Source of the DNA: Oscillospiraceae bacterium
GTDB taxonomy: Bacteria; Bacillota; Clostridia; Lachnospirales; Lachnospiraceae
Length of the DNA: 48,008 nt
NCBI GenBank assembly: GCA_021771715.1
Contig: JAETOO010000024.1
Coordinates: 1 to 48,008 of the forward strand
Direction of reading: 5' to 3'
In this document: one piece after another, positions 22,464 to 41,708 of the stretch
Layout: the number at the start of each line of letters is the position of its first letter
How positions within the stretch are numbered: the stretch's first letter is position 1
The notes under the pieces: generated by a model
What the model was told of the DNA's origin: nothing
Databases searched by the model: none
The model's input: only the letters and a program-made list of their open reading frames with translations
Position numbers and translations under genes: made by a program

Positions 22464-23636
22464 TCAGATCCGCGCCACGCCGCTCTTTCTCGCCGCCTCC
22501 GCAACTGCCTTGGCCACAGCGTCCTTCACCCGCGGGTCGAAGGCCGCCGGGAGAATGTAGTCCGCATTCAGCTCCTCATCGCTCACGAGGCCCGCGATCG
22601 CGTAAGCCGCTGCGATCTTCATCTCCGCGTTGATGTCAGACGCGCGGACGTCGAGCGCTCCGCGGAAGATACCCGGGAAGCAGAGCACATTGTTGACCTG
22701 ATTCGGATAGTCCGAGCGTCCCGTGGATACAACCGCCGCACCTGCGGCCTTTGCCTCCTCTGGAAAGATCTCCGGCGTCGGGTTCGCGCACGCAAAAATG
22801 ATCGGATCCTTCGCCATCGTGCGCACCATATCCGCAGTCAACGTGCCCGGAGCAGATACTCCGATAAAGACGTCCGCCCCCTTGATCACGTCCGCAAGCG
22901 TTCCCTTTTCATGGTCAAAGTTCGTGATCCGTGCCATCTCCTCCTTGATCGGATTCAGCCCGTCGCGCCCTTCATAGATCGCGCCCTTCCGGTCGGTCAT
23001 GATCACATTCCGAAGGCCCATCGACATCAGCAGGCGAATGATCGCAATCCCTGCCGCACCCGCGCCGCTCGTCACGATCTTGACCTCCTCGAGCTTCTTG
23101 CCCACCAGCTTCAGCGCATTGATCACGCCAGCCAGCGTGATGACCGCAGTCCCGTGCTGATCGTCATGGAAAACGGGAATGTCACAGCACTCCTTGAGCT
23201 TCTGCTCGATCTCGAAACAGCGCGGTGCGGAGATATCCTCGAGATTCACTCCGCCGAAGCTGCCCGCGAGCAGCCGGACCGTAGTTACAATATCGTCGAC
23301 GCTCTTGCTGCGCACGCACAGCGGAATCGCATCCACATCGCCGAACGCTTTGAAAAGCACACACTTTCCCTCCATCACCGGCATGCCTGCCTCCGGGCCG
23401 ATATCGCCAAGTCCGAGCACCGCCGTTCCGTCCGTCACGACCGCGACCGTGTTCCAGCGGCGCGTCAGGTCGTAGCTCTTGCTCACATCCCTCTGGATCT
23501 CGAGGCAGGGAGCCGCCACGCCAGGCGTGTAGGCAAGGCTCAGAGCCTCCTTCGTGTCTACGGCAGCGCGGGCTGTCACCTCGAGCTTTCCTTTCAACTC
23601 ATAATGCAGTTTCAGAGATTCTGCTGCGTAATCCAT
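22464..23636 (-). CDS. NAD(P)-dependent malic enzyme
   Basis: Decarboxylates malate to pyruvate with reduction of NAD(P). The 390-residue protein is the short bacterial form without a phosphotransacetylase domain. The malic domain has YTPGVAAPC, VVTDGTAVLGLGDIGPEAGMPVMEGK and FHDDQHGTAVITL; the NAD(P) domain has VTSGAGAAGIAIIRLL and FACANPTPEI. ATG at 23634-23636 follows GGAGG by 9 bases; the ATG three codons upstream has no room for a site. It lies 20 bases downstream of an SLC13-type carboxylate transporter, so together they probably import and oxidise malate or a related dicarboxylate. Confidence 0.94.
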   Translation of the reverse strand: MDYAAESLKLHYELKGKLEVTARAAVDTKEALSLAYTPGVAAPCLEIQRDVSKSYDLTRRWNTVAVVTDGTAVLGLGDIGPEAGMPVMEGKCVLFKAFGDVDAIPLCVRSKSVDDIVTTVRLLAGSFGGVNLEDISAPRCFEIEQKLKECCDIPVFHDDQHGTAVITLAGVINALKLVGKKLEEVKIVTSGAGAAGIAIIRLLMSMGLRNVIMTDRKGAIYEGRDGLNPIKEEMARITNFDHEKGTLADVIKGADVFIGVSAPGTLTADMVRTMAKDPIIFACANPTPEIFPEEAKAAGAAVVSTGRSDYPNQVNNVLCFPGIFRGALDVRASDINAEMKIAAAYAIAGLVSDEELNADYILPAAFDPRVKDAVAKAVAEAARKSGVARI

Positions 23637-23656
23637 TTTTCTCATCCTCCATCTTC

Positions 23657-24943
23657 TTATTTAAATGGGAACACAGTCATGATCCAGCCCACGCTCACGA
23701 TACACAGCAGGATCGCCGGCAGGACAGACTGTTTCACGACACTCTTGAGATCGTAGCCGCCGGCTGCCATCGCCATCGGCACCGCCGGGGTTGCCATCGG
23801 TGTCATAAAGGAACTCAGGCAGGCAGACTGCACCAGGATCATGACGCCGATCGGATTCGCGTCCATCGCCTTGCAGGCAAGAACTGCGATCGGCACAAAG
23901 ATTGTGATCACCGAGCGGTTCATCATCACCTGCGTCAGAAGGAACGGGACAATGAAGAAGACGAAACCGATCAGATAACGGTTGCCCAGACTTTCGATCA
24001 CATTTGCCAGCACCGTTCCGACCGCCTCTCCTGCTCCTGTGGCGGTCAGCGCGCCGCCCATCGTCAGAGAGCCGATGAAGAGAAAGCCCATCCACCACGG
24101 GATCGCTTCGACTGCCTCCTGCTCAGAGAGCACACCGGTCACTACCATCGCGATCGCTCCGGTCAGGCAGATCACCCACGTCTGCAGGCCGAGCATTTTC
24201 TGGAAAATCAGCGCCAAGGTGACAAGAATGAAAATGATGTAGCCCGCGCGCTCCTGAAACGGTGCAAGCGCAGCCTTCGCATCCTTCCTGGTCTTCACCT
24301 CTGTCGTCTCCACAACCGGATCATCCGGCGCGAAACGGCTCGCGAAGAAAATGGCGTACGCCGAAATCAGAAGCAGCATCGGCAGTCTCGCCTTCATCGG
24401 GTCGGTCAGCGCCACCGTGTACGTCGTGTAGGCATTCGCCTCAAGATAGCCGTTCAGCTCTGCGAACTGTGTCGCGCCGCTGCCAAGCGGAAGCACGGAG
24501 ATCGTCGCGATGCAGACGATCATCAGCGGGAACATCACCTTCGACGGCTTCACATGCAGCTCCTCACAGCTCGCGATGAGCATGGGCGCCATGATGCCGA
24601 AGACCACCATCGAGCTCTGGATAAACTGGCAGAGGACCACCGTGATCAGGACATAGCCGAACATGACCATCACAAGCGACCCCTTTGCGATCTTATTGAC
24701 ACTCGCCGCACAGTTCTTCACAAACTGCGTGCGGTTGAACCCTGCAGCTACAACGAACATCGAAAGCATCATCACTGCGTTTGTATTTGCGAAATTTGCG
24801 ACTGCCGTCCCCGGATCAATACATCCGGTCAGCACGAACGCCACCATGCTCAGCATAGCCGTCGTGCCCATTTTCAGTTTTCCCCACGCATAGCTGAAAA
24901 TTGTCAGCGCGGAGATGATAAGGCAAATTGTCAACTGACTCAT
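23657..24943 (-). CDS. SLC13/DASS-type carboxylate transporter
   Basis: A 428-residue integral membrane protein with about 11-12 hydrophobic segments, of the SLC13/ion-transporter superfamily that moves di- and tricarboxylates with sodium. Helix-hairpin-like segments around FANTNAVMMLSMFVVAAGFNRTQ and the repeated late segments SSFMTPMATPAVPMAMAAGGY fit the two-fold family layout. ATG at 24941-24943 is preceded by TTGGGGGAC; an ATG seven codons upstream lacks a site. It is the first gene of a two-gene unit with malic enzyme, which points to malate, but substrate choice is inference. Confidence 0.85.
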   Translation of the reverse strand: MSQLTICLIISALTIFSYAWGKLKMGTTAMLSMVAFVLTGCIDPGTAVANFANTNAVMMLSMFVVAAGFNRTQFVKNCAASVNKIAKGSLVMVMFGYVLITVVLCQFIQSSMVVFGIMAPMLIASCEELHVKPSKVMFPLMIVCIATISVLPLGSGATQFAELNGYLEANAYTTYTVALTDPMKARLPMLLLISAYAIFFASRFAPDDPVVETTEVKTRKDAKAALAPFQERAGYIIFILVTLALIFQKMLGLQTWVICLTGAIAMVVTGVLSEQEAVEAIPWWMGFLFIGSLTMGGALTATGAGEAVGTVLANVIESLGNRYLIGFVFFIVPFLLTQVMMNRSVITIFVPIAVLACKAMDANPIGVMILVQSACLSSFMTPMATPAVPMAMAAGGYDLKSVVKQSVLPAILLCIVSVGWIMTVFPFK

Positions 24944-25037
24944 CTTTTTGTCCCCCAAATTCATTTTTTCTGATATTCTGTGAATACCGCTTCGCTTGAA
25001 CAAAGCCCCACAAGCTACGTTTTCACATTCCCGGCAT

Positions 25038-29050: not shown

Positions 29051-31453
29051 CTACAGCGCCTGCGACGTCCGCTCGATGACCTCGTTCTGGATCGAGGCGG
29101 GCAGGCGGTTGAAGTACGCGCTGTAGCCCGCGACGCGCACCGTCAGTTCCTCGTGGTTCTCCGGGTGAATCTGCGCGTCCAGCATCTCCTCGCGGCTGAC
29201 CACGTTGAACTGGATGTGCTTTCCCCCGTTGGTCAGATAGATCCGGATCAGGCTCGCCAGCTTCTCCAGATCCTGCTCCGTCCTCAGCATCGACGGGTGA
29301 AACTTCATATTAAACAGCGTACCCTGGTAGTGATCCTGCGGGACGCGCATCGCGCTCTGGAAGACGGCCAGAGGCCCGCGCACATCCTTCCCGTGGTCCG
29401 GCGAGAGCGATGCGTCCGCGAGGATCTCCCCGCCCTTGCGCCCGTCCGCGGTCGCGCCGGTCAAGGCTCCGCCCGGCTGGTGCGCGGAGATCGAGATCGC
29501 GTTCGGACGGATCGTCGCGCCGTACGCGCTCGGATAGCTCGCACACGCCTTGTCGTGCTGCTCGTACACCTCGGCCACCAGGCGGTCTACCTCCTCGATG
29601 TTGTTGCCGTACTTCGGTGCCGCGAGGAAGTCCTTTCGCATCTCCTCATAGCCCACCCAGTCTGCGTCCAGCGCCGCGAGCAGCTGCGCCATCGTGTATT
29701 TCTTCTCATCGTAGACCAGCTTCTTGATCGCCATCAGCGCGTCGCCCGTGTTCACCCCGCCGACAGCTCCGACGACTCCGCCGTTCTCAAACGCAAAGCG
29801 GCGGTTAAACATATCCTTCCCGGACGAGACACCGTCCTTCATCAGCGCCGAGCGGAATACATCCGGGAACAGCTCGCGCTCCGCGATCAGCTCCACATTC
29901 ACGCGCTCCGCCGCCATCCCCATCAGATAGCGGATCTGACGGAACACCGCCTCCTTGAACTCCTCAAACGTCTCCATCTTCGTCACGTCGCCGGTCTGGA
30001 TCCCGACCATCTCATCTGTGTACCTGCAGTAGCCGTTGTGCATGCACACATCCATCGCGTGCGGCACGATGAAAAAGCACGCCACCTGCGTCCTCGTCAG
30101 AGCCGGGATATTTCCATCCACGCAGCCGGTCGCGCAGTAGTCCCGCGCCTCCTCAAGTGAGATCGTCCCATCCTGCATAAAGAAATTGATGTAGCTCTCG
30201 TCGCCCAGGAAGGCCGGCATCCCAAGTCCGGAGCGCACGACCTCCAGCGCCTTCTGCATCAGCAGCTTCGGCGTACCCTTGTGGACCCGGACTGTCACCG
30301 TGTGGTGCGGCAGATGCGTATCCAGCGCAGCCTCCAGAAGCAAGTAAGACAGGTCGTTCGTCGCGTCGCTCCCGTCCGCTTTCTGGCCGCCGATCGTCCA
30401 GTTGTACCATTTCGCCATGCCTGCGTTCTTCGCGCGGTTCGCTTTTCCTGAGACGCGGTTGATCTTCATGACCTTGCAGCGCATGATCTCGAGCAGCTCG
30501 AGCACATCCTCCCGCATAAGCCGCCCCTCGCGGATATCCTTCTCATAATACGGGTACATGTACTGATCAAAGCGGCCCGCCGTCGAAGTCGGAGACGGGC
30601 ACACCATCAGGAACGTAAACCAGAATGACTGCAGTGCCTCGCGGAACGTCTCCGCCGGCTCATACGGCACCTTCCGGCAGATCCGCGCCATCTCTAAAAG
30701 CTCTGCCCTTCTCGTCTCATGTTTCTCCTTGGCCGCCATTTGCTCCGCAAGGCTGGCATAGCGGTTTGCAAAACGCACCCACGCCTCAAAGACGAGAATC
30801 ACACCCTCCCAGTAGTTGCGCTTCTCGATGCTGTCGATCTCATAGTAGCGCAGATTTTTCAGGCACTCCCTCGCCTCCTCGATGATCGCCCGCGCCCCGC
30901 CGGTCAGGATCTTCGCGTAGTCCACACACACAAGAGAAAAGCCGGGCCCCAGGCCGTAGCCCGACATCGCAAAACCGCCGCCGCTGCCGCCCTTTCGGTC
31001 CTTCCACGGCGGGAGCACCAGCCCGGAGCGCATAAACGGCCAGAGCCGGTCGTCCATCCCGAGCGATTTTCCCATCTCCCCGATCAGGTTGCTGTTCAGG
31101 CTGTTGCTCGCGAAGCGCTCATTCAGGCGGTACAACTCCTCCTCATCCTCCGGTGTGATCGTGTAGATCTCAGATTTCAGCGATTCGACCTCGTCCTTTG
31201 TCCACACGCCGTACTCGTACTGCATCTCGAGGCCGAACGGCTTGCTCGCGCCCGATCCGCACAGCAGGTCGTCCTCCTCGATAAAAATCGTAATGTTGTC
31301 GAGCACATGTGCGTGGAGCTTTGCGCGCCGCAGCAGCATCGGCTCCCCCGCAGTCTGCTCGAGGGACTCGTTTGCCAGCCGGAACTGCTCTACACACAGC
31401 GGGTACTTGTTGACCCGCAGACTTTCCTTCATCCGTCTTACCCGTTCTCTCAT
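29051..31453 (-). CDS. Glycyl radical enzyme of the PFL2 group, substrate unknown
   Basis: An 800-residue glycyl radical enzyme. The radical site RVAGYSAYF near the C-terminus places the glycyl radical at about Gly776. The active-site loop reads YCATGCVDGN with the thiyl Cys at 444; most dehydratases and decarboxylases of this group (for example choline TMA-lyase, glycerol and hydroxyproline dehydratases) have Glu two residues after that Cys, whereas here it is Asp446. I do not recognise the exact subfamily. ATG at 31451-31453 follows AGGAGG by 8-9 bases. The activase and a PucR-type regulator diverge from it. Length and lack of a microcompartment gene nearby argue against diol dehydratase loci. 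It converges on the MATE gene. Confidence 0.9.
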   Translation of the reverse strand: MRERVRRMKESLRVNKYPLCVEQFRLANESLEQTAGEPMLLRRAKLHAHVLDNITIFIEEDDLLCGSGASKPFGLEMQYEYGVWTKDEVESLKSEIYTITPEDEEELYRLNERFASNSLNSNLIGEMGKSLGMDDRLWPFMRSGLVLPPWKDRKGGSGGGFAMSGYGLGPGFSLVCVDYAKILTGGARAIIEEARECLKNLRYYEIDSIEKRNYWEGVILVFEAWVRFANRYASLAEQMAAKEKHETRRAELLEMARICRKVPYEPAETFREALQSFWFTFLMVCPSPTSTAGRFDQYMYPYYEKDIREGRLMREDVLELLEIMRCKVMKINRVSGKANRAKNAGMAKWYNWTIGGQKADGSDATNDLSYLLLEAALDTHLPHHTVTVRVHKGTPKLLMQKALEVVRSGLGMPAFLGDESYINFFMQDGTISLEEARDYCATGCVDGNIPALTRTQVACFFIVPHAMDVCMHNGYCRYTDEMVGIQTGDVTKMETFEEFKEAVFRQIRYLMGMAAERVNVELIAERELFPDVFRSALMKDGVSSGKDMFNRRFAFENGGVVGAVGGVNTGDALMAIKKLVYDEKKYTMAQLLAALDADWVGYEEMRKDFLAAPKYGNNIEEVDRLVAEVYEQHDKACASYPSAYGATIRPNAISISAHQPGGALTGATADGRKGGEILADASLSPDHGKDVRGPLAVFQSAMRVPQDHYQGTLFNMKFHPSMLRTEQDLEKLASLIRIYLTNGGKHIQFNVVSREEMLDAQIHPENHEELTVRVAGYSAYFNRLPASIQNEVIERTSQAL

Positions 31454-31806
31454 CTCGATACCTCCTGGTTTCCTGTCATCCATACATCTTTTTCTGTAGT
31501 AAACCATCTTTTTGGGCTGCGTTCAAGCGCTCCCGGAAAATGTGTGCGCGCCGCACAATCCGCGCAGCTCCATTTATACAGGCTGCATATTCCTTCATTT
31601 CCTTCTGGCATACGGACCGGAAATCGGCTATACTGGACCTACAGACTCACTATGATTTTCCAGGTTACAATTCAATCGCAGATAAAACCTCGCAGCGGCG
31701 AAGCGTTTACGCAGAAAGTGTGTCTGCCGCTTGCATAGTACTTCGGCCAGAATGTAACCTTTCCAGTGCCCCGGCATCTGTACCGGATGACAGACGGGAG
31801 GAACTT
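31454..31806. promoter_or_regulatory. Divergent control region of glycyl radical enzyme and PucR-type regulator
   Basis: This 353-base gap contains no gene. For the enzyme, minus-strand TTGAAC (31521-31526), 17 bases and TTTACT (31498-31503) is a candidate promoter. For the regulator, plus-strand TGGCAT (31606-31611), 17 bases and TATACT (31629-31634) is a candidate with poor -35, as expected for an activated promoter. The inverted pair GGTTACA (31663-31669) and TGTAACC (31753-31759) could be operator half-sites. All three are weak by themselves. Confidence 0.45.
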
Positions 31807-32934
31807 ATGACAAATTATGAACTGCTGCACAGGCTCGGCGATACGGTTTCTTTCTTTACGGAAAACCCAAAAGAGGCCGCATTTTCACACATTGAGCTGC
31901 TCGATAACCAGAGCTATTTTACCAAAGGAGTCCTGTATCTCGGGACGTTCCGGAAATATGCCGTGCTCTCGCCCGCCGGCACCTTCGAGGACGCTGCTGT
32001 GTTCCTGCTCGCGGAGACAACTGCAGCGCAGCTTGCGCTGCTTCCCCATCCGAACGGTGTCTCCATTCTGGTATCGCACCGTTCCCAGGAATCGCTGTTT
32101 AATCGGATCAGCGCGCTCATGCGCAGCTCGCCGGACGCCGCAGAAACCGCCTGGGCGCAGATCCTCTCCAGGAAAATCGTGACCGCGCACGAGATCCTGG
32201 CCGCGCTGTTCCCTGACGCGACCGCCCCCGGCTTCTACCTGCAGCAGCTCCTGTTCTCTCCCGAGGACGGGAAGGTGGACGAACTGCTCCCCGCCCTTGG
32301 CAGGCTGTTTCCCGACGGCACACTCATCCGGCAGAAGCGAACCGCCGTCGTCCTGCGCAGGCACCAAAGTCAGCTCTTCCGCTTCCCGCTCCCGCCCGGC
32401 ATTGATACCTGGCTCGGGGAGCACCGCTGTCTTCTCTGTGTCGGCAACGCGACGCGCGATCTCTCCATGATCCGCACCAACGCCGTCCTGCTCGCACAGA
32501 CCTGCCGTCTCGGCAGCCGGCTGCGCAAGCCCGAACAGCGCATCCTCTACCTCGAGGAATACCAGATGATGATCACGATTGACAATTCCGTGAAGGAATT
32601 TATCCGCAAGAACGGCCACGCTGACATCTGCTACCTCGCCCACCCGGCGCTGATTCACATCGCACGCTACGATTTTGTGCACAGAACCAACCTGCGTGAG
32701 GTTCTCTACCAGTATCTTGCCTTCGGAGGCAACATCCAGCGAACCGCGGAAACGCTCTACATGCACCGCAACACGGTGCTCAACAAGCTGAAAAAGATAC
32801 ACGAACTGATTGACTTTGACTTTTCCGACGGCCTGCTCTGCCAGCGTCTCCTGCTATCCTGCCAGCTCATGGAGTACCAGGAGAAGATACTGCGGCGGCC
32901 GATCGACTGGGAGAAACGATATGAGGAGAGATGA
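31807..32934 (+). CDS. PucR/CdaR-type transcriptional regulator
   Basis: A 375-residue protein with the PucR-type C-terminal helix-turn-helix: LREVLYQYLAFGGNIQRTAETLYMHRNTVLNKLKKI, where the segment NIQRTAETLYMHRNTV is diagnostic. The N-terminal two thirds have no motif I can name and probably sense a ligand. ATG at 31807 follows GGGAGG. The gene overlaps the start of the activase gene by 14 bases, so both are co-translated. Placement, divergent from the glycyl radical enzyme, makes it the probable regulator of that enzyme. Confidence 0.87.
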   Translation: MTNYELLHRLGDTVSFFTENPKEAAFSHIELLDNQSYFTKGVLYLGTFRKYAVLSPAGTFEDAAVFLLAETTAAQLALLPHPNGVSILVSHRSQESLFNRISALMRSSPDAAETAWAQILSRKIVTAHEILAALFPDATAPGFYLQQLLFSPEDGKVDELLPALGRLFPDGTLIRQKRTAVVLRRHQSQLFRFPLPPGIDTWLGEHRCLLCVGNATRDLSMIRTNAVLLAQTCRLGSRLRKPEQRILYLEEYQMMITIDNSVKEFIRKNGHADICYLAHPALIHIARYDFVHRTNLREVLYQYLAFGGNIQRTAETLYMHRNTVLNKLKKIHELIDFDFSDGLLCQRLLLSCQLMEYQEKILRRPIDWEKRYEER

Positions 32935-33829
32935 ACTGACCGGAACCGTATTTAATATCCAACATTACTGCATCCACGACGGCCCGGGGATCCGCACCGG
33001 CGTCTTTGTAAAGGGCTGCCCGCTTCGCTGCCTCTGGTGCGCGAACCCGGAATCCCAGTCCACGCACCCGCAGATCTTCTGGGAGGAACGCAAATGCACC
33101 CGCTGCCAGGCCTGCATCGCCGCCTGTCCGAGAAAGGCACTCTTCTTTTCCGAGAATAAGATCTGCATTGACCTCGCCATGTGCGACGGCTGCGGCCGGT
33201 GTGCCCAAATCTGTCCGAGCGAAGCGCGGACGATCGCCGGAAAGACGATGACCTGCTCCCAGGTGATGGAGGAGGTGCTCGAGGACCGGCTCTTCTACGG
33301 GACGGACGGCGGCATCACCGTGAGCGGCGGCGAGCCGACGATGCAGCCTGACTTCACGCGCGCACTGCTCGCAGCCTCAAAGGAGGCCGGGATCACGACC
33401 GCCATCGAGACATGCGGCTACACCAGCCAGGAGACGCTCGCAGCCATCGCACCGCTGTGCGACACCTTCCTCTACGACGTCAAGGCCGTGAATCCCCAGA
33501 AGCACCGCGCCTGCACGCTGCGCTACAACCAGCCCATCCTCGCGAATCTGCGCATGCTCGCCGCCTCGTTCCCGCAGTGCGACATCTGGATCCGCACGCC
33601 AATCATCCCCGGCTACAACGACTCAGACGAGGACATGGAGCGGCTGCGCGATCTCGCCGCCTCCATCCCCACCTGCTCCCAGGTCCACCTCCTGCCCTAC
33701 CACAACCTCGGCGAGGGCAAGCGCGAGCAGCTCGGAGACCCCGCCGCTTTCACCGCCGAGATCCCATCGGCCGAGCACATGGAACGGCTGCGGGACATTG
33801 TGCAAGGATGCGGGAAGCCGGTGTACTGA
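32921..33829 (+). CDS. Glycyl-radical enzyme activating protein (radical SAM)
   Basis: A 302-residue activase that uses S-adenosylmethionine to install the glycyl radical. The radical SAM cluster is in GCPLRCLWCANPE (CxxxCxxC near residue 35), followed by two ferredoxin-type 4Fe-4S motifs, CTRCQACIAACPRKA and CDGCGRCAQICPSEA, the insertion typical of activases for PFL2-type enzymes. The SGGEPTMQPDF segment binds SAM. ATG at 32921-32923 follows GGGAGAAA and lies inside the end of the regulator gene. Its partner is evidently the enzyme at 29051-31453. Confidence 0.95.
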   Translation: MRRDELTGTVFNIQHYCIHDGPGIRTGVFVKGCPLRCLWCANPESQSTHPQIFWEERKCTRCQACIAACPRKALFFSENKICIDLAMCDGCGRCAQICPSEARTIAGKTMTCSQVMEEVLEDRLFYGTDGGITVSGGEPTMQPDFTRALLAASKEAGITTAIETCGYTSQETLAAIAPLCDTFLYDVKAVNPQKHRACTLRYNQPILANLRMLAASFPQCDIWIRTPIIPGYNDSDEDMERLRDLAASIPTCSQVHLLPYHNLGEGKREQLGDPAAFTAEIPSAEHMERLRDIVQGCGKPVY

Positions 33830-33988: not shown

Positions 33989-35083
33989 CTACGCTTTCTC
34001 CGCCAGAATCTCCCGCGACCTGCGGTACAACTCTTCCGCGTACTTCCCTTTCAGGTACGGCGTAAACTTCCGGTTGAGCACGCATACCTTCCCGGGCGTG
34101 CCGCAGAACCGCTTGGCCGCAGCCGCGGCCTTCGCGCAGATCTCTGCCTCCGTCTCCTGCTCCTCATCATACGGATCCGGTGACAGGCCAATCACGATCC
34201 GGTCCCCGTACTCCTCGAACAGCCGCTGGGTGTCGTTGATGTTCGGCATCGGGGCCCACAGATCCCAGCCGCCTGCGATGAAATTCTCGATCTGCCGCTC
34301 ATTGCAGCCACAGCTGTGCAGCTCCGCCGCCTTTCCCTTGCTGTGGATGTGATCCGTGATCTTCCGCATGGACGGCACCAGCAGATTGCGCCCCGCCTCA
34401 AACGAGAAGAACGGCGCACGCTGCGTCCCCCAGTCGTCATGGATCAGAAAGCCGTCGATGTCAAAGTACGCGCAGCACCGGTCGACCAGGTCACACGCCA
34501 GATCCGCCAAACGATCAAAAAGTTCCTTGACCGCATCCTCCTGTTCCTCGTCCACCAGGGCTACCGCCGCATCCTCGAAGCCCATAAACGAGATCAGCCG
34601 CTCGAAGCCAAAGCCGTTCAGCAGCGTCAGATAATTGAATTTGCCGTTCTGAAGGAACTCCCGGTTGCGCGCACTGCAACCCTCCCAGTCCCAGCTGTCG
34701 AGATCCGGCCACGCCAGCCGCTCCTTCCAGTCATTCGCGTCGTCAAAGAGATGAGCACAGCCAGGCTTCTCCATCGAGCCGCCGGCCACCGGCACGTACA
34801 CCCACTCGACGCCGAACATGTCCTTTCCGCCCTTCTCCTCGTCCGGGATCACGATCCCACCGTCATTCACAAAGCCCCGCGCCCGGTTGTCCGGAATGAT
34901 GTCCGGGAAAAACTCAAACGTCTCGACGCCGCTGCACAGCCAGACGGGCTTCCGATCCAGGATGGCGCGTTTCCAGCCCTCCTTCTTCGTCAAGGGATAA
35001 TCAAACACCGGCACAGCCGCATTCCGAAATGAGGTGTCAACCGCCGTCACCCGCAGCTCCTTTTCTTCAAACTGAATCCCCAT
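33989..35083 (-). CDS. Uroporphyrinogen decarboxylase-fold protein, corrinoid methyltransferase-like
   Basis: A 364-residue protein of the URO-D superfamily. The motif ELHSCGCNERQIENFIAGGWDLW (shown in part: LHSCG then a second Cys two residues on) is the His/Cys zinc-site motif seen in MtaA/MtbA/CmuA-type methyltransferases and their relatives, rather than true heme-pathway HemE, which lacks it. The usual partners (corrinoid protein, MtvB-like or MtaC-like) are not in the window. ATG at 35081-35083 follows AGGAG. It is 191 bases downstream of the double hydrolase gene, co-directional. A role in methyl transfer is plausible, but many such proteins in sugar operons are uncharacterised. Confidence 0.75.
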   Translation of the reverse strand: MGIQFEEKELRVTAVDTSFRNAAVPVFDYPLTKKEGWKRAILDRKPVWLCSGVETFEFFPDIIPDNRARGFVNDGGIVIPDEEKGGKDMFGVEWVYVPVAGGSMEKPGCAHLFDDANDWKERLAWPDLDSWDWEGCSARNREFLQNGKFNYLTLLNGFGFERLISFMGFEDAAVALVDEEQEDAVKELFDRLADLACDLVDRCCAYFDIDGFLIHDDWGTQRAPFFSFEAGRNLLVPSMRKITDHIHSKGKAAELHSCGCNERQIENFIAGGWDLWAPMPNINDTQRLFEEYGDRIVIGLSPDPYDEEQETEAEICAKAAAAAKRFCGTPGKVCVLNRKFTPYLKGKYAEELYRRSREILAEKA

Positions 35084-35274
35084 ACAGATTCTCCTTTCTC
35101 TTCTCCCGCATCCAATGATACACTTCCTGTTTTTTCGTGACACAGTTGTATTGCCCGAGGAACTGCCTGTCTACAAACTATTCCGCATCTGCAGCAGGCA
35201 GTCATCCCTCTGCCATACGCAACGACATATGTAGCTTGGCACGCTGCTCTCCCAAAACTCTGCTGTCTATTCCT

Positions 35275-38112
35275 CTACACTCTGCTCACCAGAAACTCTA
35301 CCACTGCCTGCTTCACCTCCGGATCCTCGCCGAAGAGCCCGTTGTTGTTGCACAGCAGCAGCGATTTGACTCCTTTCCGGGTCAGGGCCTCGAACATCCG
35401 GACGCTCTGTCCCATCGGCACCTGGATTCCGCACTCGTAAATCCCGTGCACGAGACACAGAGGTGCGCTGTGCTCTGTCACATGCCACACCGGGCTTCCC
35501 TCCTTCGCCAGACGAATCAGCTCCTGGTACTTCGGGTCCGGGTCGAACAGATGCGCCTTCACATCTCCCATACCTTTCCCCTCGCCGACGTACCCCAGCA
35601 GGCTGCCGAGCGGTGCAAACGGTCCGTCGGACTGTGCCACCTTCCCCGGCTGTGACGGCCAGACGGCAGCCGAGTCATCTCCGAAATGGAAGAAATCGGT
35701 GAAGGCATAGTAGGCTGCCGCCGCGCGGATGCTGCTGTCATACTCCGTATTTCCTCCGATCGTCCCCTCGACCTGCGGATCGCCGTTGCACGCCGCGAGC
35801 ATCGCCGTCAGATGGCCGCCCATCGAGCCGCCGATCAGCCCGAACCGCTCCGGGTCCAGCCCCAGCTCTGCGGCATGCGCTTTCAGATACCGGATACACC
35901 CACGCACATCCTCGCCGGAGGTCGGCCACACATTCGGCGGGCAGAGGCGGTAGTCCACGGACGCCACCGCATAGCCCCGCTTCAAAAAGAGTTCCGTGTT
36001 CGTCTCGAACTGGTGATGATTGCCCCCAAAGCCGTGAATGTTGATGATACACGGCAGTTTGCTACGCTCCCCCTCCGGGTAGATCAGATCCACAAACAGA
36101 TCAAAAGTATTGCGCAGCTGCGGATTGCGGTCTCCGAAGGCGCCCTTCGCCACCGGGACCATCGCGACATACAGGTTCCGCACATCAGCCTGCGGCGTGT
36201 AGCCCCACGGCCTCCTGGGCACCGGGATCTCCCCGCTCACATCCCCGAATGTGTAGCGGTCCGGAAGCGCTGCAGTTGCGTCAAATGTAAATGCGCCCTC
36301 CGCCACCGCCCTGGCCACGCCGTTCTCCGTCCACACGCGCACCGTCCCGTGCTCGAGCTCGTAGACCATCGCGCCTCGCTCCGGGTAGACCTGGCGGCAC
36401 GGGTACGATTCAAAGCGTCCGCCCCGCTCGCGGTACACCGCGCGCTTGAACACGTACAGCGTCTCCTCGCCCTGCACGAACCGCGACGCCACAGGCTTCA
36501 CAACCGGCAGACGCAGGAAGGACGCATGGCCCGTTCCCGTGTACAGCCGGACCGTCGCCCCCTCCTTGGGGAAGCCCTCCGGCTGCTGGTATCCGCTTCC
36601 ACCGCACGAAATGCTCAGCCGCACCCTGCTCCCTGCCGGGATGATCCTGGAGAGCGCGTCAAGATGAAATGCCAGCTTCTTCGGCGCTGTTTCCGAGAGC
36701 TCCTCGTAGTCCTCCCGGTATCCGCGGTGGTACGGGATGCCGACCGACTCATAGATGTTGTTCGGATGCACCTTCGCATGGCTCGCGCGCATCGCTCCGT
36801 CCGCAAGGAAATGACTCACGCCGTCCGGCGTCACTTCCTCGAGACACGCGATAAAATTGCCGTCCCTGTGGCTGGACGTCACCCACAATTCCACAACCGG
36901 GATACCGGTAAGCTCCAGATCCTTCGGGAGCACCTCTGACGTAAAGACAATGGACTTCGCATCCTCCGGAGTCATGTCCTTCTCCACGTCGAGATTCATC
37001 CGCATGCCGGGCCCGAAGATCATGATGTCGTCCCGCGTCCGATAGGAGACTGCTCCATCCTCCGGAAGCGTCTCCGAGAGCGCCCCGTCCTGCGTCAGGT
37101 ACAGCTGCGGGTACGTCGTCCCGTCCACCGGGAAGTCCGCCGCCCAGTGCCACTCATTTCCCGTATCTCCGATCGTGTAGTAGCGGATCGGCGGCTCCGA
37201 GAGAATCCCATCGTCCTTCCCCTTCACATGCGCGTCAAAATAGCGGATATGCTCGCCTGCCCAGTCATACTCCGAATCCGGATATTTGTGATACCCAAAG
37301 TAGATCCCGCAGTGCGGCCACGGCCCGATCAGCAATCGGCCGCCCCAGCTCTTCCACTCCAAAATCTTGTTCGTGCGCCCCGGGTCGAACCACGCGCCGA
37401 TGCTCCAGAATGCCACGTGTCCGTGCCGGATCACGTCCATCCGCTCCCACGCCGGCACATCCAGATTCGGCCGGTAGCCCAGATACGGGTGCACATCGTC
37501 GCGGAACATGTTCACGACGTGCTGCGCGAGGAACGGCAGGTTGCGCTCATGGCAGCGAAGCGCCTCGTGTGCCATCGGGTAGTCCGGAGCCGGGTCCTCG
37601 TCCACGGGCGCGCCGATCTCCGGACTCGCGTGATGGCCCGGCATGTTCGGCAGTGCGCTCGCCCCGTTCGGGAAATCCTGGTCGTAAAAATCCATACTGC
37701 AGTCGCACGGCGCACTCGCGAGCAGACACTCAGGCTGCTCCAGCATCGTGACCTCCTGGATCATCCCGTGGTTCGAGCCCCCATACGTCCCTGCCTTACC
37801 GCTGCACCACGGCTCCTTGGTGAGCGATTCGAGCACGGCTGCCATATCCTTCCCGTCGTGCAGCCCGAAAAATCCGTCGCTGACCCCATAGGAAGCCCCA
37901 CTGCCCCGCACGTCCACAAACGCGACCGCGTAGCCCGCGGCTAAAAAGCGCTCCACCGCCGCCTGGTCCTCCTCAAACATCTTTCTGCGCGGCGCATAGC
38001 CCGCCTTCAGGAGCACCGGCACCTTCTCCTGCGTCTCCGGAAGATAGACATCCACCGCAAGCTTTGTCCCGTCCACCCCCGGTATGTAGTTTGAAATCCG
38101 TCTGTAATCCAT
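35275..38112 (-). CDS. Two-domain hydrolase: CocE/S15-type esterase joined to BD-FAE-type alpha/beta-hydrolase
   Basis: A 945-residue protein with no signal peptide. Residues 1 to about 560 form a CocE/NonD (X-Pro dipeptidyl-peptidase S15) unit: LPETQEKVPVLLKAGY, DVRGSGASYG, the nucleophile motif GGSNHG with Ser at about 113, a cap helix region, and a beta-jellyroll that ends near 560. From about 640 a second alpha/beta-hydrolase begins, with oxyanion motif NIHGFGGNHHQF and nucleophile motif GGSMGGHLTAML, resembling BD-FAE acetyl/feruloyl esterases. ATG at 38110-38112 follows AGGAG by 7 bases. It lies 21 bases downstream of the lplC-type permease, so it probably acts on what the transporter brings in. 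Substrates are inferred to be acyl esters. Confidence 0.85.
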   Translation of the reverse strand: MDYRRISNYIPGVDGTKLAVDVYLPETQEKVPVLLKAGYAPRRKMFEEDQAAVERFLAAGYAVAFVDVRGSGASYGVSDGFFGLHDGKDMAAVLESLTKEPWCSGKAGTYGGSNHGMIQEVTMLEQPECLLASAPCDCSMDFYDQDFPNGASALPNMPGHHASPEIGAPVDEDPAPDYPMAHEALRCHERNLPFLAQHVVNMFRDDVHPYLGYRPNLDVPAWERMDVIRHGHVAFWSIGAWFDPGRTNKILEWKSWGGRLLIGPWPHCGIYFGYHKYPDSEYDWAGEHIRYFDAHVKGKDDGILSEPPIRYYTIGDTGNEWHWAADFPVDGTTYPQLYLTQDGALSETLPEDGAVSYRTRDDIMIFGPGMRMNLDVEKDMTPEDAKSIVFTSEVLPKDLELTGIPVVELWVTSSHRDGNFIACLEEVTPDGVSHFLADGAMRASHAKVHPNNIYESVGIPYHRGYREDYEELSETAPKKLAFHLDALSRIIPAGSRVRLSISCGGSGYQQPEGFPKEGATVRLYTGTGHASFLRLPVVKPVASRFVQGEETLYVFKRAVYRERGGRFESYPCRQVYPERGAMVYELEHGTVRVWTENGVARAVAEGAFTFDATAALPDRYTFGDVSGEIPVPRRPWGYTPQADVRNLYVAMVPVAKGAFGDRNPQLRNTFDLFVDLIYPEGERSKLPCIINIHGFGGNHHQFETNTELFLKRGYAVASVDYRLCPPNVWPTSGEDVRGCIRYLKAHAAELGLDPERFGLIGGSMGGHLTAMLAACNGDPQVEGTIGGNTEYDSSIRAAAAYYAFTDFFHFGDDSAAVWPSQPGKVAQSDGPFAPLGSLLGYVGEGKGMGDVKAHLFDPDPKYQELIRLAKEGSPVWHVTEHSAPLCLVHGIYECGIQVPMGQSVRMFEALTRKGVKSLLLCNNNGLFGEDPEVKQAVVEFLVSRV

Positions 38113-38133
38113 TCTCAATCTCCTCTCATTTTG

Positions 38134-39024
38134 TCAGCCCTTCACGCCTCCGACCACGATGCCCTTCACGAAATACTTCTGGAAGAACGGGTAGATCACC
38201 AGCACCGGCAGGACCGCGATGACCGCGATGCCCATCCGGATCCCGGAGGTCGGAAGGCTCAGGCTCGCGCTCTGCAGCTGCGTCACATTCGTATTGTTCG
38301 CGAGGAACTCCGCGTTCGACATCATCGTGTTGAGTACGTTCTGGATCGTGTACAGCTCGGTTCTTCGCACCAGATAGTACAGACCGTTGATCCAGTCATT
38401 CCAGTACGCCAGCCCCGAGAACAGGCCGACCGTCGCGATCATCGGCTTCGAGAGCGGCAGCACGACGCGGAACAGGATCCCGACCTCACTGCAGCTATCC
38501 ATCTCCGCCGCCTCGATGATCTCCGGCGGGATATTCGTCGTCAAATACGTCCGCATCAGAATCACGTTGTACGCGCCCATCAGCAGGTTCGGCAGAATCA
38601 ACGCCCACACCGTATCCCGGATGTGAAACACTCCCGTCCAGATGATGTAGGACGGCACCATTCCGCCGTTGAACAGCATTGTAAAGAACACGAAAAACGA
38701 GAGAAACATTCTGCCCGGCAGATCCTTCTTTGAGAGAAGGTAGGCCAGAGACAGCGTCAGAAAAATATTCATCGTCGTCCCGACCGCCGTGACAAAAAAC
38801 GTCATCCCGTACGCCTTGAGGATCTTCTGATACGACGACAGCAGGTAATCGTACGCCGCAAAGCTGATCTTTCTCGGGAAAAACGAATACCCATAGGTGG
38901 TCAGCGTCGCCTCGTCCGTCAGTGATGCCATCACGAGCAGCACAAACGGCAGAATACACGCCAGCACCAGAAGGATCATGATCACGTTTACCGCTATCCG
39001 AAAACTCTTTTTACTTCCTACCAT
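38134..39024 (-). CDS. ABC sugar transporter permease, LplC/YtcP type
   Basis: A 296-residue inner component with six transmembrane helices. The EAA loop that contacts the ATPase is EIIEAAEMDSCSEVGILFRVVLPLSKP. The C-terminus FFQKYFVKGIVVGGVKG is the hallmark of the carbohydrate CUT1 LplC/YtcP branch. ATG at 39022-39024 follows AAGGAGGGG. It is 12 bases downstream of the LplB-type permease. No ATPase gene is present; this group usually shares a common MsmX-like ATPase encoded elsewhere. Confidence 0.93.
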   Translation of the reverse strand: MVGSKKSFRIAVNVIMILLVLACILPFVLLVMASLTDEATLTTYGYSFFPRKISFAAYDYLLSSYQKILKAYGMTFFVTAVGTTMNIFLTLSLAYLLSKKDLPGRMFLSFFVFFTMLFNGGMVPSYIIWTGVFHIRDTVWALILPNLLMGAYNVILMRTYLTTNIPPEIIEAAEMDSCSEVGILFRVVLPLSKPMIATVGLFSGLAYWNDWINGLYYLVRRTELYTIQNVLNTMMSNAEFLANNTNVTQLQSASLSLPTSGIRMGIAVIAVLPVLVIYPFFQKYFVKGIVVGGVKG

Positions 39025-39036
39025 AGCAGCCCCTCC

Positions 39037-39981
39037 TTAAAACAGTGCACTGTCCGGATCTGTCTTGCGGACAATGAGATTCGTAATCATGACCACCGCA
39101 AAGCCAAGCACGGACTGCAGGAATCCTGCCGCCAGCGATCGTCCGACGTCGTTGTCCTGCATCAGCGCGCGGTACACGAACGTGTCGATCGTCGTGGTCG
39201 TCCGGTAGAGCATACCGCTGTCCTGCGGCACCTGGTAGAACAGACCAAAGTCCGATGCAAACATTCTGCCCAGCGACATCACCAGCAGGATGATCACCGT
39301 CGGCCGGAGCATCGGAAGCGTGATCTTGCGGATCTGCTGCCAGGTGCTCGCACCGTCGACCGCCGCCGCCTCATAGTACGCGCGGTCAAAGCCGACAATC
39401 GTCGCAAAATACACGATGCTCTGGAACCCGAACGACTTCCACAGGTGCACAATCGTCAGAATCACTGGCCAGTACCCTGCCTCCGTGTACCAGCTGACCC
39501 CCTCGAATCCGAGCGGCTCCAGAATACTCTTGTTGATGAAGCCGTTGGAACCGCTCAGAAACGCAAACACCAAGTACCCCACGACCACCATCGACATCAG
39601 GTGCGGGATCAGGATGATCGTCTGGTACACCTGCTGCGCCTTCTTGCTGATCACCTCGTTGAGCAAAATCGCCACCGTGATCGCAAAGACCGTCCCCAGC
39701 AGCAGGAAGACGACGTTGTACAGAATCGTGTTGGTAAACATGATCTTCGCCCACTTCGATCCGAACAGGAAGGTGAAATTTTTCAGTCCGTTCCACGGGC
39801 TCTCCCAGATCCCCTTGCGGAAGCTGAACTTCTTGAACGCCAGCACCAGGCCGCCCATCGGGAGGTAGTTGTTCACCACCAGGTAGAGCAGGCTGGGCAG
39901 TGCCAGCAGGTAGAGCGGAGCATACTTTTTCAACCGCTTTTTTAACGAGAGGCGCTTCTTCGCCTTTTCACTTTTCGTCAT
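39037..39981 (-). CDS. ABC sugar transporter permease, LplB type
   Basis: A 314-residue membrane protein with a basic N-terminus (KKRLSLKKRLKKY), then six transmembrane helices beginning LYLLALPSLLYLVVNNYLPMGGLVLAFKKF, a sequence typical of LplB/YtaB permeases of oligosaccharide importers. The EAA loop is YYEAAAVDGASTWQQIRKITLPMLRP. ATG at 39979-39981 follows GGGGGA. It is preceded by a hairpin (40020-40045) that separates it from the binding-protein gene. Confidence 0.93.
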   Translation of the reverse strand: MTKSEKAKKRLSLKKRLKKYAPLYLLALPSLLYLVVNNYLPMGGLVLAFKKFSFRKGIWESPWNGLKNFTFLFGSKWAKIMFTNTILYNVVFLLLGTVFAITVAILLNEVISKKAQQVYQTIILIPHLMSMVVVGYLVFAFLSGSNGFINKSILEPLGFEGVSWYTEAGYWPVILTIVHLWKSFGFQSIVYFATIVGFDRAYYEAAAVDGASTWQQIRKITLPMLRPTVIILLVMSLGRMFASDFGLFYQVPQDSGMLYRTTTTIDTFVYRALMQDNDVGRSLAAGFLQSVLGFAVVMITNLIVRKTDPDSALF

Positions 39982-40019
39982 ATGCTATCCCCCACAAACT
40001 TCGATCGCCGGACAGCAAA

Positions 40020-40045
40020 GGCTGCCGCAGATTCCCGCGGCAGCC
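40020..40045 (-). terminator. Intra-operon hairpin between binding protein and permeases
   Basis: GGCTGCCGC (40020-40028) pairs perfectly with GCGGCAGCC (40037-40045) around an 8-base loop and is followed on the minus strand by TTTGCTGT. It probably stabilises the binding-protein mRNA or reduces read-through, giving more binding protein than permease, as is common in such operons. Confidence 0.65.
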
Positions 40046-40123
40046 ATACCATCTGCTTCTATGCTGTGCTATTTGATTATCGCCTCACAGCCCGGTCACC
40101 TCGGACCTGCTGCGCTGCCGCTT

Positions 40124-41593
40124 CTACTCCTCTGCCGCCAGGAATGCGTCGAGCTGGCTCTGCTTTTCCGCGATCACATCGTCGATCCCGGCCGCCTCGA
40201 GCTCGCCTAAGAACTCCTCCAGATAGGAGTCCACGTCCACCTGTGCAAACACGAGTGCATCCCGATACTCCTCGATGACCGCCGTCACCGCCGCGTACTC
40301 GTCGTACACCGGCTCACTGTCGAAAGCGAAGCCGATTGCCTTGGACTTCTGGCAGTTGTCATTCGACGCGAGCATCTCCTCGTAGTAGTGCGGGTTGTCC
40401 GTCTCGAACGGAATGCAGAGCGTCTGGTTCGGGAAATACCACTGTGCGCCGGTACCCCAGCCAAGGCTCGTCATGCTCTCGCCCTCCGGATACCAGGAAC
40501 AACCATTCTCATCCACAACATAGTGTGCGCCCTCGACTCCCTGTGCCAGGAAACGCATCACATTTTCATCGGTGTACATCAGGTACAGCGCCTTCTTGCT
40601 GGCCTCCTCATCTCTCGTCACAGAAGAGATACAGTATCCGGATCCGGACGCTGACTGTGCCGTAGCGACCGGCTCCGTGATCGGGTAGATCTTCCAGTCA
40701 TAGCCGTACACATTCGCACCCTGGCGCGCATCCTCCACACTGAAGCCGTTGTGGAACGATCCGCCGGAAACTCCTGTCTTCATATAGGACTTGTCGAGCG
40801 GCTGGTTGAGCGGGTCATCCAGGAAAAGACCAGCCTCCTTCCACTGCACTGCACAGTCCAGGAATTCCTTAAAGGTGTCTGTCGCATAGAGGTTCACGAC
40901 CTCTGTGTTGTCGATGCCGTTGTTCATCAGCACGCCCGTGCAGTTCGAATCACCGAGACGGTCGATGTTCATGATTCCAAACTCTTCATTTGTGATAAAG
41001 GCAAGCTCTGGAAACGCCTCTTTCGCCTTGAGCAGCATCTCCGTGATCTCCTGCAGCGTCATCAGCTGTCCTTCCTTGTCCGCGTAGCCGATCGCCTCCG
41101 CGATATCACTGCGCAGCGCATAGCAGAAGATCTGGCCGTACGCGCCGATATTCGGGAGCGCGTACTGGGTACCGTTGATCTGTCCGAGCGGCAGATACTC
41201 CTCCCCCACCACGTCCACGATGTCCGGATACTCCTCGAGAAACTCATCCAGCGGAACCACCTGCTCATTTGCCACGACACTCGTCAGCTTCGAGAAGAAA
41301 TTGTAGCTGAACACATCAATCGGATCCTCCGGGGAAGTCAGCATCAGAGTCATCGTGGTGCTCAGATTTCCGAACTCGATCGGAATGATGTCCATCTGGA
41401 TCCCCGCGTCGATCGACACCAGGTACTCGTTCAGCGCGGTCTCGACCATCTCCTCATCCGTCACCGGCTGGGTCGGCACTACCGCCGTCGTGACGACCGG
41501 CCAGTCCTCCACGCCCTCTGCGCCTGCCGTCGTTCCCAGCGCCGCTGCGCCCGTCAGCGCCATCGCCATCAGAATCAGATTTCGTCTCTTCAT
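40124..41593 (-). CDS. Extracellular solute-binding protein of the LplB/LplC-type transporter
   Basis: A 489-residue exported binding protein. The N-terminus MKRRNLILMAMALTGAAALG is a signal peptide, but the expected lipobox Cys is missing: the cleavage region reads GTTAGAEGVEDW with no Cys. The mature part fits the DUF3502-type oligosaccharide binding proteins (segments GQINGTQYALPNIGAYGQ and SGSGYCISSVTRDEEASKKAL). ATG at 41591-41593 follows AAGGAGG. It is first in the operon SBP-lplB-lplC-hydrolase and is preceded by the direct repeat at 41673-41706. Ligand unknown. Confidence 0.88.
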   Translation of the reverse strand: MKRRNLILMAMALTGAAALGTTAGAEGVEDWPVVTTAVVPTQPVTDEEMVETALNEYLVSIDAGIQMDIIPIEFGNLSTTMTLMLTSPEDPIDVFSYNFFSKLTSVVANEQVVPLDEFLEEYPDIVDVVGEEYLPLGQINGTQYALPNIGAYGQIFCYALRSDIAEAIGYADKEGQLMTLQEITEMLLKAKEAFPELAFITNEEFGIMNIDRLGDSNCTGVLMNNGIDNTEVVNLYATDTFKEFLDCAVQWKEAGLFLDDPLNQPLDKSYMKTGVSGGSFHNGFSVEDARQGANVYGYDWKIYPITEPVATAQSASGSGYCISSVTRDEEASKKALYLMYTDENVMRFLAQGVEGAHYVVDENGCSWYPEGESMTSLGWGTGAQWYFPNQTLCIPFETDNPHYYEEMLASNDNCQKSKAIGFAFDSEPVYDEYAAVTAVIEEYRDALVFAQVDVDSYLEEFLGELEAAGIDDVIAEKQSQLDAFLAAEE

Positions 41594-41650
41594 GTCTTTT
41601 CCTCCTTTTCTGCTCTTTCACAGCAGCTCTTTGATACATCCATCTTACCG

Positions 41651-41706
41651 ATTTTAAGGAAAGAAAAATATACATTTTCTGTCTGATTCTATACCATTTT
41701 CTGTCT
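41651..41706 (-). promoter_or_regulatory. Direct-repeat operator and promoter upstream of the solute-binding protein
   Basis: The plus-strand 12-mer CATTTTCTGTCT occurs perfectly at 41673-41684 and 41695-41706, a 22-base period or two helical turns. On the minus strand the proximal copy overlaps the -35 position relative to TAAAAT (41651-41656, 17 bases further). Paired direct repeats at this spacing, ending on the -35, are the usual site of AraC-type activators, and such a regulator is encoded immediately upstream (its stop is at 41709). Confidence 0.75.
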
Positions 41707-41708
41707 AA

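Follow-up and report, generated by a model that had tools for sequence, protein, structure and literature searches.

The window analyzed here is a 48,008-nucleotide stretch (positions 1 to 48,008 of the forward strand) of contig JAETOO010000024.1 from the Oscillospiraceae bacterium assembly GCA_021771715.1. It encodes a glycyl radical enzyme (GRE) that has Asp in place of the usual Glu at the second position after the thiyl cysteine (C+2). The original prediction described this enzyme, its radical-SAM activase, and a PucR-type regulator as a compact module, and the gene arrangement agrees: the regulator is divergent from the GRE gene, and its stop overlaps the activase start. The features of the module are as follows.

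29051–31453, minus strand: Asp-type GRE, 800 residues (PF02901, 515 bits; PF01228, 103 bits), with the start assigned from homolog lengths and a Shine-Dalgarno sequence
30116–30124, minus strand: codons of the thiyl radical Cys444-Val445-Asp446 (Asp at C+2), assigned by alignment with GRE relatives
29126–29128, minus strand: codon of Gly776, the predicted glycyl radical site in VRVAGYSAYF, invariant in 47 rows of alignment A1
31454–31806, unstranded: divergent intergenic region between the GRE and regulator genes
31807–32934, plus strand: PucR-type regulator, 375 residues (HTH_30, 54.5 bits, scored on the longer reading frame 31540–32934)
32921–33829, plus strand: radical-SAM GRE-activating enzyme, 302 residues (TIGR02494, 333.5 bits against a cut-off of 174.35, scored on the longer reading frame 32810–33829)

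The listed open reading frame (ORF) of the window GRE extends to 31507. The start at 31453 was used because most homologs have about 800 residues and a Shine-Dalgarno sequence (aggagg) precedes the inner ATG. All features of the GRE superfamily are present, namely the PFL-like and Gly_radical domains, the thiyl Cys, an RVxGY loop (RVAGYS in the window protein), and a partner activase, which carries a CX3CX2C motif and two ferredoxin motifs. Loss of the radical site was ruled out, as Gly776 is kept. The window GRE is the sole PF02901 match in the host assembly. By its sequence, the window gene is a complete GRE of an Asp-marked and so far uncharacterized clade.

Asp at C+2 as a clade marker

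The GCVDG loop with Asp after the thiyl Cys, as originally described, is real and conserved across the clade. Asp occupies C+2 in 41/41 subfamily rows of alignment A1. A database search gave GCVD[GA]N in 120/120 matches listed, the window protein included, and the glycyl sites of these matches read RVAGYSA (114) or RVAGYST (6). In the wider GRE family, 7502 proteins scored below 1e-50, and the loop motif was read in the 120 listed. A GRE alignment of 184 rows was made from 182 of 196 profile matches (those with more than 620 matched residues) and two PDB references; the other 14 matches, with 620 residues or fewer and PFLs among them, were left out. Asp is at C+2 in 76 of the 184 rows (75 distinct sequences) and in none outside the clade. 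The Asp rows are 40.9–100% identical to the window protein, and identity does not exceed 37.6% in the 108 other rows (105 distinct). Because this identity split matches the Asp/non-Asp split, the Asp clade is a discrete group marked by Asp. With Asp in all aligned clade members, chance or error at C+2 was ruled out.

Glu had been taken as the usual residue at this position. It is found in most GREs (89 of the 108 non-Asp rows), but it is not universal: the other rows have Ser (8), Val (6), Gln (2), or else Tyr, Ala, or Leu. The Leu occurs in the arylacetate decarboxylase (AAD; 7e7l), and Ser or Val occurs in the X-succinate-synthase-like rows. Escherichia coli PFL, which is not among the 184 rows, has Ser. 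Separately, a same-family genome (G171) encodes a protein (locus L148, 397–3072) that scores over the HPAD large-subunit cut-off (1314 versus 1150 bits) and has Ala, not Glu, at C+2.

The enzyme had also been called an orphan, and this description does not hold. In addition to the 120 listed matches, a close-relative scan of GTDB species representatives gave at least 75 distinct loci among the best 80 of 127 matches, and the Asp type was confirmed by alignment in 65 of the 75. These loci belong mostly to gut and rumen Clostridia, as labeled. The clade is rare per genome. Two of 398 phylum-wide sampled genomes match at an E-value of 1e-200, the host genome being one of them, and the 35 other genomes of the host's genus gave no match of high identity (best, 37%). 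As judged from these searches, the Asp-type GRE is a patchy, widespread accessory family.

Tandem GRE genes were observed at two loci. In a goat omasum Bacillota metagenome-assembled genome (L073, 3–19691), one strand carries six GRE reading frames. They fall into two groups separated by genes for a MatC-like carrier, an aldehyde dehydrogenase, and an iron alcohol dehydrogenase. Asp is at C+2 in five of these frames; the first, which is cut by the locus end, is outside the motif alignment. The second locus (L149, 3994–15726; a class member, genome G160) has five tandem GREs whose glycyl site reads RVGGYS or a close variant; the two that were placed in the tree have GCQEIE thiyl loops. This genome has 19 first-look GRE candidates.

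Relation to known glycyl radical enzymes

The window GRE reached no NCBIfam equivalog cut-off among the models tested (CutC, HypD, IAD, HPAD, HpsG/HpfG, PflD-type, and PFL). Its scores, each given in bits and followed by the cut-off, were 502/1000 for sulfopropanediol dehydratase, 454/1050 for CutC, 430/1100 for IAD, 424/1100 for HypD, and 341/1150 for HPAD. The subfamily model TIGR01774 gave 530 bits, below its cut-off of 678. No characterized cluster with Asp at C+2 was found among the NCBIfam models, the aligned reference rows, or the literature searched, so the outcome by which the original prediction would have been refuted did not arise in these comparisons. The literature search, with subscription papers mostly beyond its reach, found neither a characterized Asp-type clade nor an aliphatic GRE decarboxylase, and the available parts of PMC12507026, PMC11574389, PMC6181972, PMC9248008, PMC11528403, and PMC12290011 do not mention the clade. 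The original suggestion that the reaction may be a new one still stands. The noncanonical aminoacyl radical enzymes are likewise GRE relatives without an assigned function, many of them from Eubacteriales; according to the available part of their description, the radical Gly is replaced by Ala, Ser, or Thr, and they are placed near the eliminases (PMC11528403). The window GRE differs from them in keeping Gly776.

Trees were built with IQ-TREE from two alignments and rooted on PFL, and the groups tested were named after the first tree was seen. The Asp clade forms one group with support of 100/100. Its grouping with AAD, IAD, and HPAD has support of 97/96 in the first alignment and 95/95 in the second, and the branching order inside this larger group is poorly supported. 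The grouping of the Asp clade with the dehydratase and lyase GREs (eliminases) was rejected by approximately unbiased (AU) tests (p = 0.0117 and 0.0154). In these trees, the Asp clade is placed with the X-acetate decarboxylases, beside the X-succinate synthases and apart from the eliminases. The original prediction did not foresee this position on the decarboxylase side of the tree.

A motif alignment of 8 Asp-clade rows and 17 other GRE rows revealed signature residues. Position 348 holds Lys or Arg in 8/8 Asp rows and in 0/17 others; two of these others (AAD and HpsG) carry His there. At position 384, 7/8 Asp rows have His and 17/17 others have Pro, and His383 is present in most Asp-clade rows. 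Met716 of the Asp clade (N-M-K/R) is common to AAD, IAD, and L168, whereas seven eliminase rows have NQK, NVK, NFK, or NIK at this position and HPAD has NLK. The X-acetate decarboxylases AAD (7e7l), IAD, and HPAD occupy the same branch of the rooted tree as the Asp clade, and IAD and most HPAD rows share with it an acidic residue at C+2. They differ in their identity to the window GRE (at most 37.6%), in Lys/Arg348 and His384, which set the Asp clade apart, and in having Glu at C+2 where the window GRE has Asp446. The Glu1 of IAD and HPAD is missing from the window GRE and likewise from AAD, which has Leu. The X-succinate synthases (BSS and MAS/ASS) form the neighboring branch, and their aligned rows differ in carrying Ser or Val at C+2.

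The nearest solved structures are the diol and glycerol dehydratases, with 33–35% identity (phmmer, Foldseek, and VIA-align). The B12-independent glycerol/1,2-propanediol dehydratases (1r8w and 5i2g) are the best PDB match and have the Cys and Gly loops in common with the window GRE. The A1 profile ranked the X-succinate synthases first against the PDB, and this ranking was set aside because A1 contains six X-succinate-synthase rows. We take the diol-binding residues of glycerol dehydratase to be H164, H281, S282, Y339, E435, D447, and Y640. Their counterparts in the window GRE are Leu174 (H164), Pro288 (H281), Thr289 (S282), Trp349 (Y339), Asp446 (E435), Ile653 (Y640), and, depending on the alignment, Val457 or Ala458 (D447). 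Four of the seven positions (H164, H281, D447, and Y640) are changed nonconservatively and Y339 is changed to Trp, with S282T and E435D being conservative. Identity as a diol dehydratase was ruled out, since most of the residues presumed to bind the diol are replaced.

These comparisons bear on a broader alternative, in which the window GRE is an eliminase that dehydrates a tartrate- or malate-like hydroxy-dicarboxylic acid by way of an alpha-hydroxy radical and in which Asp446 donates a proton to the departing hydroxyl. The closeness of the diol dehydratase structures favors this idea, as do the aldehyde and alcohol dehydrogenases beside the tandem GREs of L073 and, at a second locus (L055), a nickel-pincer isomerase and HGD-D proteins that would suit 2-hydroxy acids. 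The replaced glycerol dehydratase residues and the AU tests that separate the Asp clade from the eliminases argue against it. We consider such a dehydration rather unlikely.

Gene neighborhoods and the proposed reaction

Neighboring ORFs were clustered, and the cluster representatives were identified with Pfam and NCBIfam. Families were counted within 8 kb of the GRE in 70 Asp-clade entries and in the 30 that remained after dereplication at 85% GRE identity. One locus is present twice among the 70 (L147 is L031, with an identical GRE). Three counted loci are outside the motif alignment: L075 has GCVDGN, and the Asp is unconfirmed in L077 and L078. The controls were 40 loci of other same-class GREs, taken from 29 genomes without dereplication and including HypD, PFL, and HPAD loci. 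In the Fisher tests, each locus counts as independent.

Carriers of the MatC, CitMHS, DASS, or TctA type were found in 27/70 Asp-clade entries compared to 0/40 controls. The counts after dereplication were 15/30 and 0/40 (p = 2.1e-7) and were unchanged at a looser E-value, a test that only partly meets the bias of carrier hidden Markov models built from Asp-clade neighborhoods. The mean flank was 11.8 kb in the Asp set and 15.4 kb in the controls; because the Asp-set flanks are shorter, the enrichment is, if anything, underestimated. MatC lies within 200 bp of the GRE on the same strand in 9/14 loci (the neighbor in L048 is a paralog). Homologs of the PucR-type regulator were found in 14/30 dereplicated loci and in 0/40 controls. 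The original prediction held that the reaction was not obvious from the context, and the enrichment of di- and tricarboxylate carriers revises that view. The window is a carrier locus solely through its own DASS protein, which was overlooked originally together with its neighbor:

23657–25003, minus strand: CitMHS/DASS-type carboxylate carrier (PF03600, 102 bits), a possible accessory linked by proximity only
22464–23645, minus strand: malic enzyme (PF00390 and PF03949) adjoining the carrier, a possible accessory

Other families are less frequent. CapA/PGA_cap-like proteins were found in 5/30 loci compared to 0/40 controls (p = 0.012). MmgE/PrpD proteins were found in 9/70 compared to 0/40, and in 3/30 after dereplication, which is not significant (p = 0.074). 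CoA-transferase and acyl-CoA dehydrogenase were each found in 6/70 compared to 0/40 (p = 0.085, not significant), CaiB-type CoA-transferases in 2/70, and Opp-type ABC importers in 5/70 compared to 1/40. In four loci (L025, L034, L056, and L074), genes for a YdiF-like CoA-transferase and for an acyl-CoA dehydrogenase lie near the GRE gene. The electron transfer flavoprotein (ETF) subunits of L025 exceed the acryloyl-CoA reductase cut-offs (AcrA, 682.5/600; AcrB, 512.9/475). The acyl-CoA dehydrogenase of this locus is under its cut-off (409.8/640), and its nearest PDB entry is the caffeyl-CoA reductase CarC. The nearest PDB entry to the MmgE/PrpD protein of L021 is iminodisuccinate epimerase (96 bits). 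The available part of PMC12290011 gives methylsuccinate, iminodisuccinate, cis-aconitate, and 2-methylcitrate as characterized MmgE/PrpD substrates and describes a methylsuccinate isomerase gene accompanied by CoA-transferase and acyl-CoA dehydrogenase genes. The Youngiibacter fragilis locus (L055) combines MatC, GRE, activase, a CitMHS symporter, a CapA-like protein, HGD-D proteins, and a CaiB-type CoA-transferase. Taken together, the Asp-clade neighbors suggest chemistry on either small polycarboxylates or hydroxy acids, whereas the X-acetate decarboxylases use aryl acids.

The nickel-pincer-cofactor isomerase of L055 (3932–5263) belongs to group 22 (514 bits, cut-off 400) and lies about 5 kb upstream of the GRE. 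Its position offers a possible substrate link for this isomerase group.

We tentatively infer that the Asp-clade GRE is a radical decarboxylase, or carries out other C–C bond chemistry, on a small aliphatic di- or tricarboxylic acid. In established GRE chemistry, the activase puts a radical on Gly, which passes it to Cys. In the window system, the activase would make the radical on Gly776, and Gly776 would hand it to Cys444. By analogy to the indoleacetate and phenylacetate decarboxylases, the Cys444 thiyl radical would take a hydrogen from the CH2 or CH adjoining the leaving carboxylate. The available parts of PMC6181972 and PMC9248008 describe Glu at C+2 as the proposed proton donor of IAD and HPAD, and IAD is thought to begin by abstraction of the alpha-carbon hydrogen. 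Asp446 may replace Glu1 as the acid/base, and Lys/Arg348 with the clade-typical His384 (and His383 in most rows) probably bind the substrate carboxylates, as their conservation suggests. The acid may be sensed by the PucR-type regulator and imported or exchanged by the MatC, CitMHS, or TctABC carriers, which are known here as gene neighbors only. In some hosts, the product could be a substituted succinate or an unsaturated acid that the neighboring MmgE/PrpD, CoA-transferase, and acyl-CoA dehydrogenase would use.

Several observations weigh against this decarboxylase. A grouping of the Asp clade with the X-succinate synthases is absent from the best tree but is not rejected (AU p = 0.09). Fold comparison gives the diol dehydratases slightly higher scores than the decarboxylases, a ranking that cannot separate the two. 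Two loci fit less well (L073, with its aldehyde and alcohol dehydrogenases and tandem GREs, and L070, with a BtpA-like protein), and many Asp-clade loci have none of these neighbors.

The tree result leaves room for an X-succinate-synthase-like enzyme that couples a substrate with fumarate or, in the reverse direction, releases fumarate from a substituted succinate. Substituted succinates would be consistent with the dicarboxylate carriers, CaiB-type CoA-transferases, acyl-CoA dehydrogenase, and MmgE/PrpD. X-succinate synthases are multisubunit enzymes, and no small subunit was noticed in the gene maps (ORFs of at least 80 residues), although no model search was aimed at them. Their rows have Ser (Val in one) at C+2 where the clade has Asp, and most Asp-clade hosts are labeled as gut or rumen bacteria. 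This alternative is improbable. A C–N or C–S lyase, or another eliminase, acting on a zwitterionic or sulfonated acid would make the carboxylate carriers coincidental. GRE eliminases are versatile, and other contexts exist, such as Opp-type ABC importers and CocE hydrolases. The carrier enrichment (15/30 versus 0/40) counts against such a lyase, as does the lack of sulfite or amine handling among the identified neighbor clusters (representatives only), and we regard it as about equally improbable.

Known GRE decarboxylases turn aryl acids into p-cresol, toluene, and skatole. In the available part of PMC9248008, four characterized GRE decarboxylases are counted, for arylacetates. A bolder and more doubtful form of the decarboxylase proposal is that the Asp clade comprises the first GRE decarboxylases of aliphatic polycarboxylates, for example a succinyl- or alkenyl-acetate decarboxylase, a version in keeping with several of the neighbors, that would make methylsuccinate from tricarballylate or mesaconate/citraconate from aconitate. 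The acid would enter through Tct or MatC, the methylsuccinate would be epimerized by MmgE/PrpD, and the CoA-transferase with the ETF-linked acyl-CoA dehydrogenase would use methylsuccinate as an electron sink. The AcrAB-type ETF locus L025 would suit a conversion of fumarate to acrylate. If correct, this proposal would bring substrates that are abundant in the gut and rumen (ordinary plant or tricarboxylic acid cycle-type acids) within the range of radical decarboxylation and would describe an unrecognized route of anaerobes to propionate- or methylsuccinate-type products. The sequence marker of the Asp clade is strict, and the candidate substrates that could be tested are few.

Other genes of the window and host

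The absence of a nearby microcompartment, as originally stated, is correct for the window's contig. The host genome does have such a locus: a shell locus with eight BMC-domain matches, none of them on the window's contig, lies on contig C53 (4328–18203), and there is no second PF02901 enzyme in the host genome for it. No MmgE/PrpD protein was found in the host genome.

Two further neighbors that the original prediction overlooked, a UroD-like gene and a CocE/NonD esterase gene, occupy 33989–38118:

33989–35143, minus strand: UroD/MtaA-like protein, without a Pfam match of its own over cut-off; a relative in L072 matches URO-D over cut-off
35275–38118, minus strand: CocE/NonD hydrolase fused to a BD-FAE-type esterase domain (TIGR00976, 247 bits; BD-FAE, 120 bits), a possible accessory

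A profile of the UroD-like cluster gave no match in the PDB. The UroD-like family was found in 13/70 Asp-clade entries and 2/40 controls (p = 0.08), and in 9/30 compared to 2/40 after dereplication (p = 0.0068); the looser E-value gave 3/40 controls (p = 0.023). The CocE family was found in 8/70 compared to 0/40 (p = 0.049) without dereplication. The minus-strand genes from 33989 to 43370 are, in order, the UroD-like gene, the CocE/BD-FAE esterase, two apparent ABC permeases and a binding protein (identified by eye), and a response regulator. This region resembles an ester or oligosaccharide utilization operon next to the GRE module.

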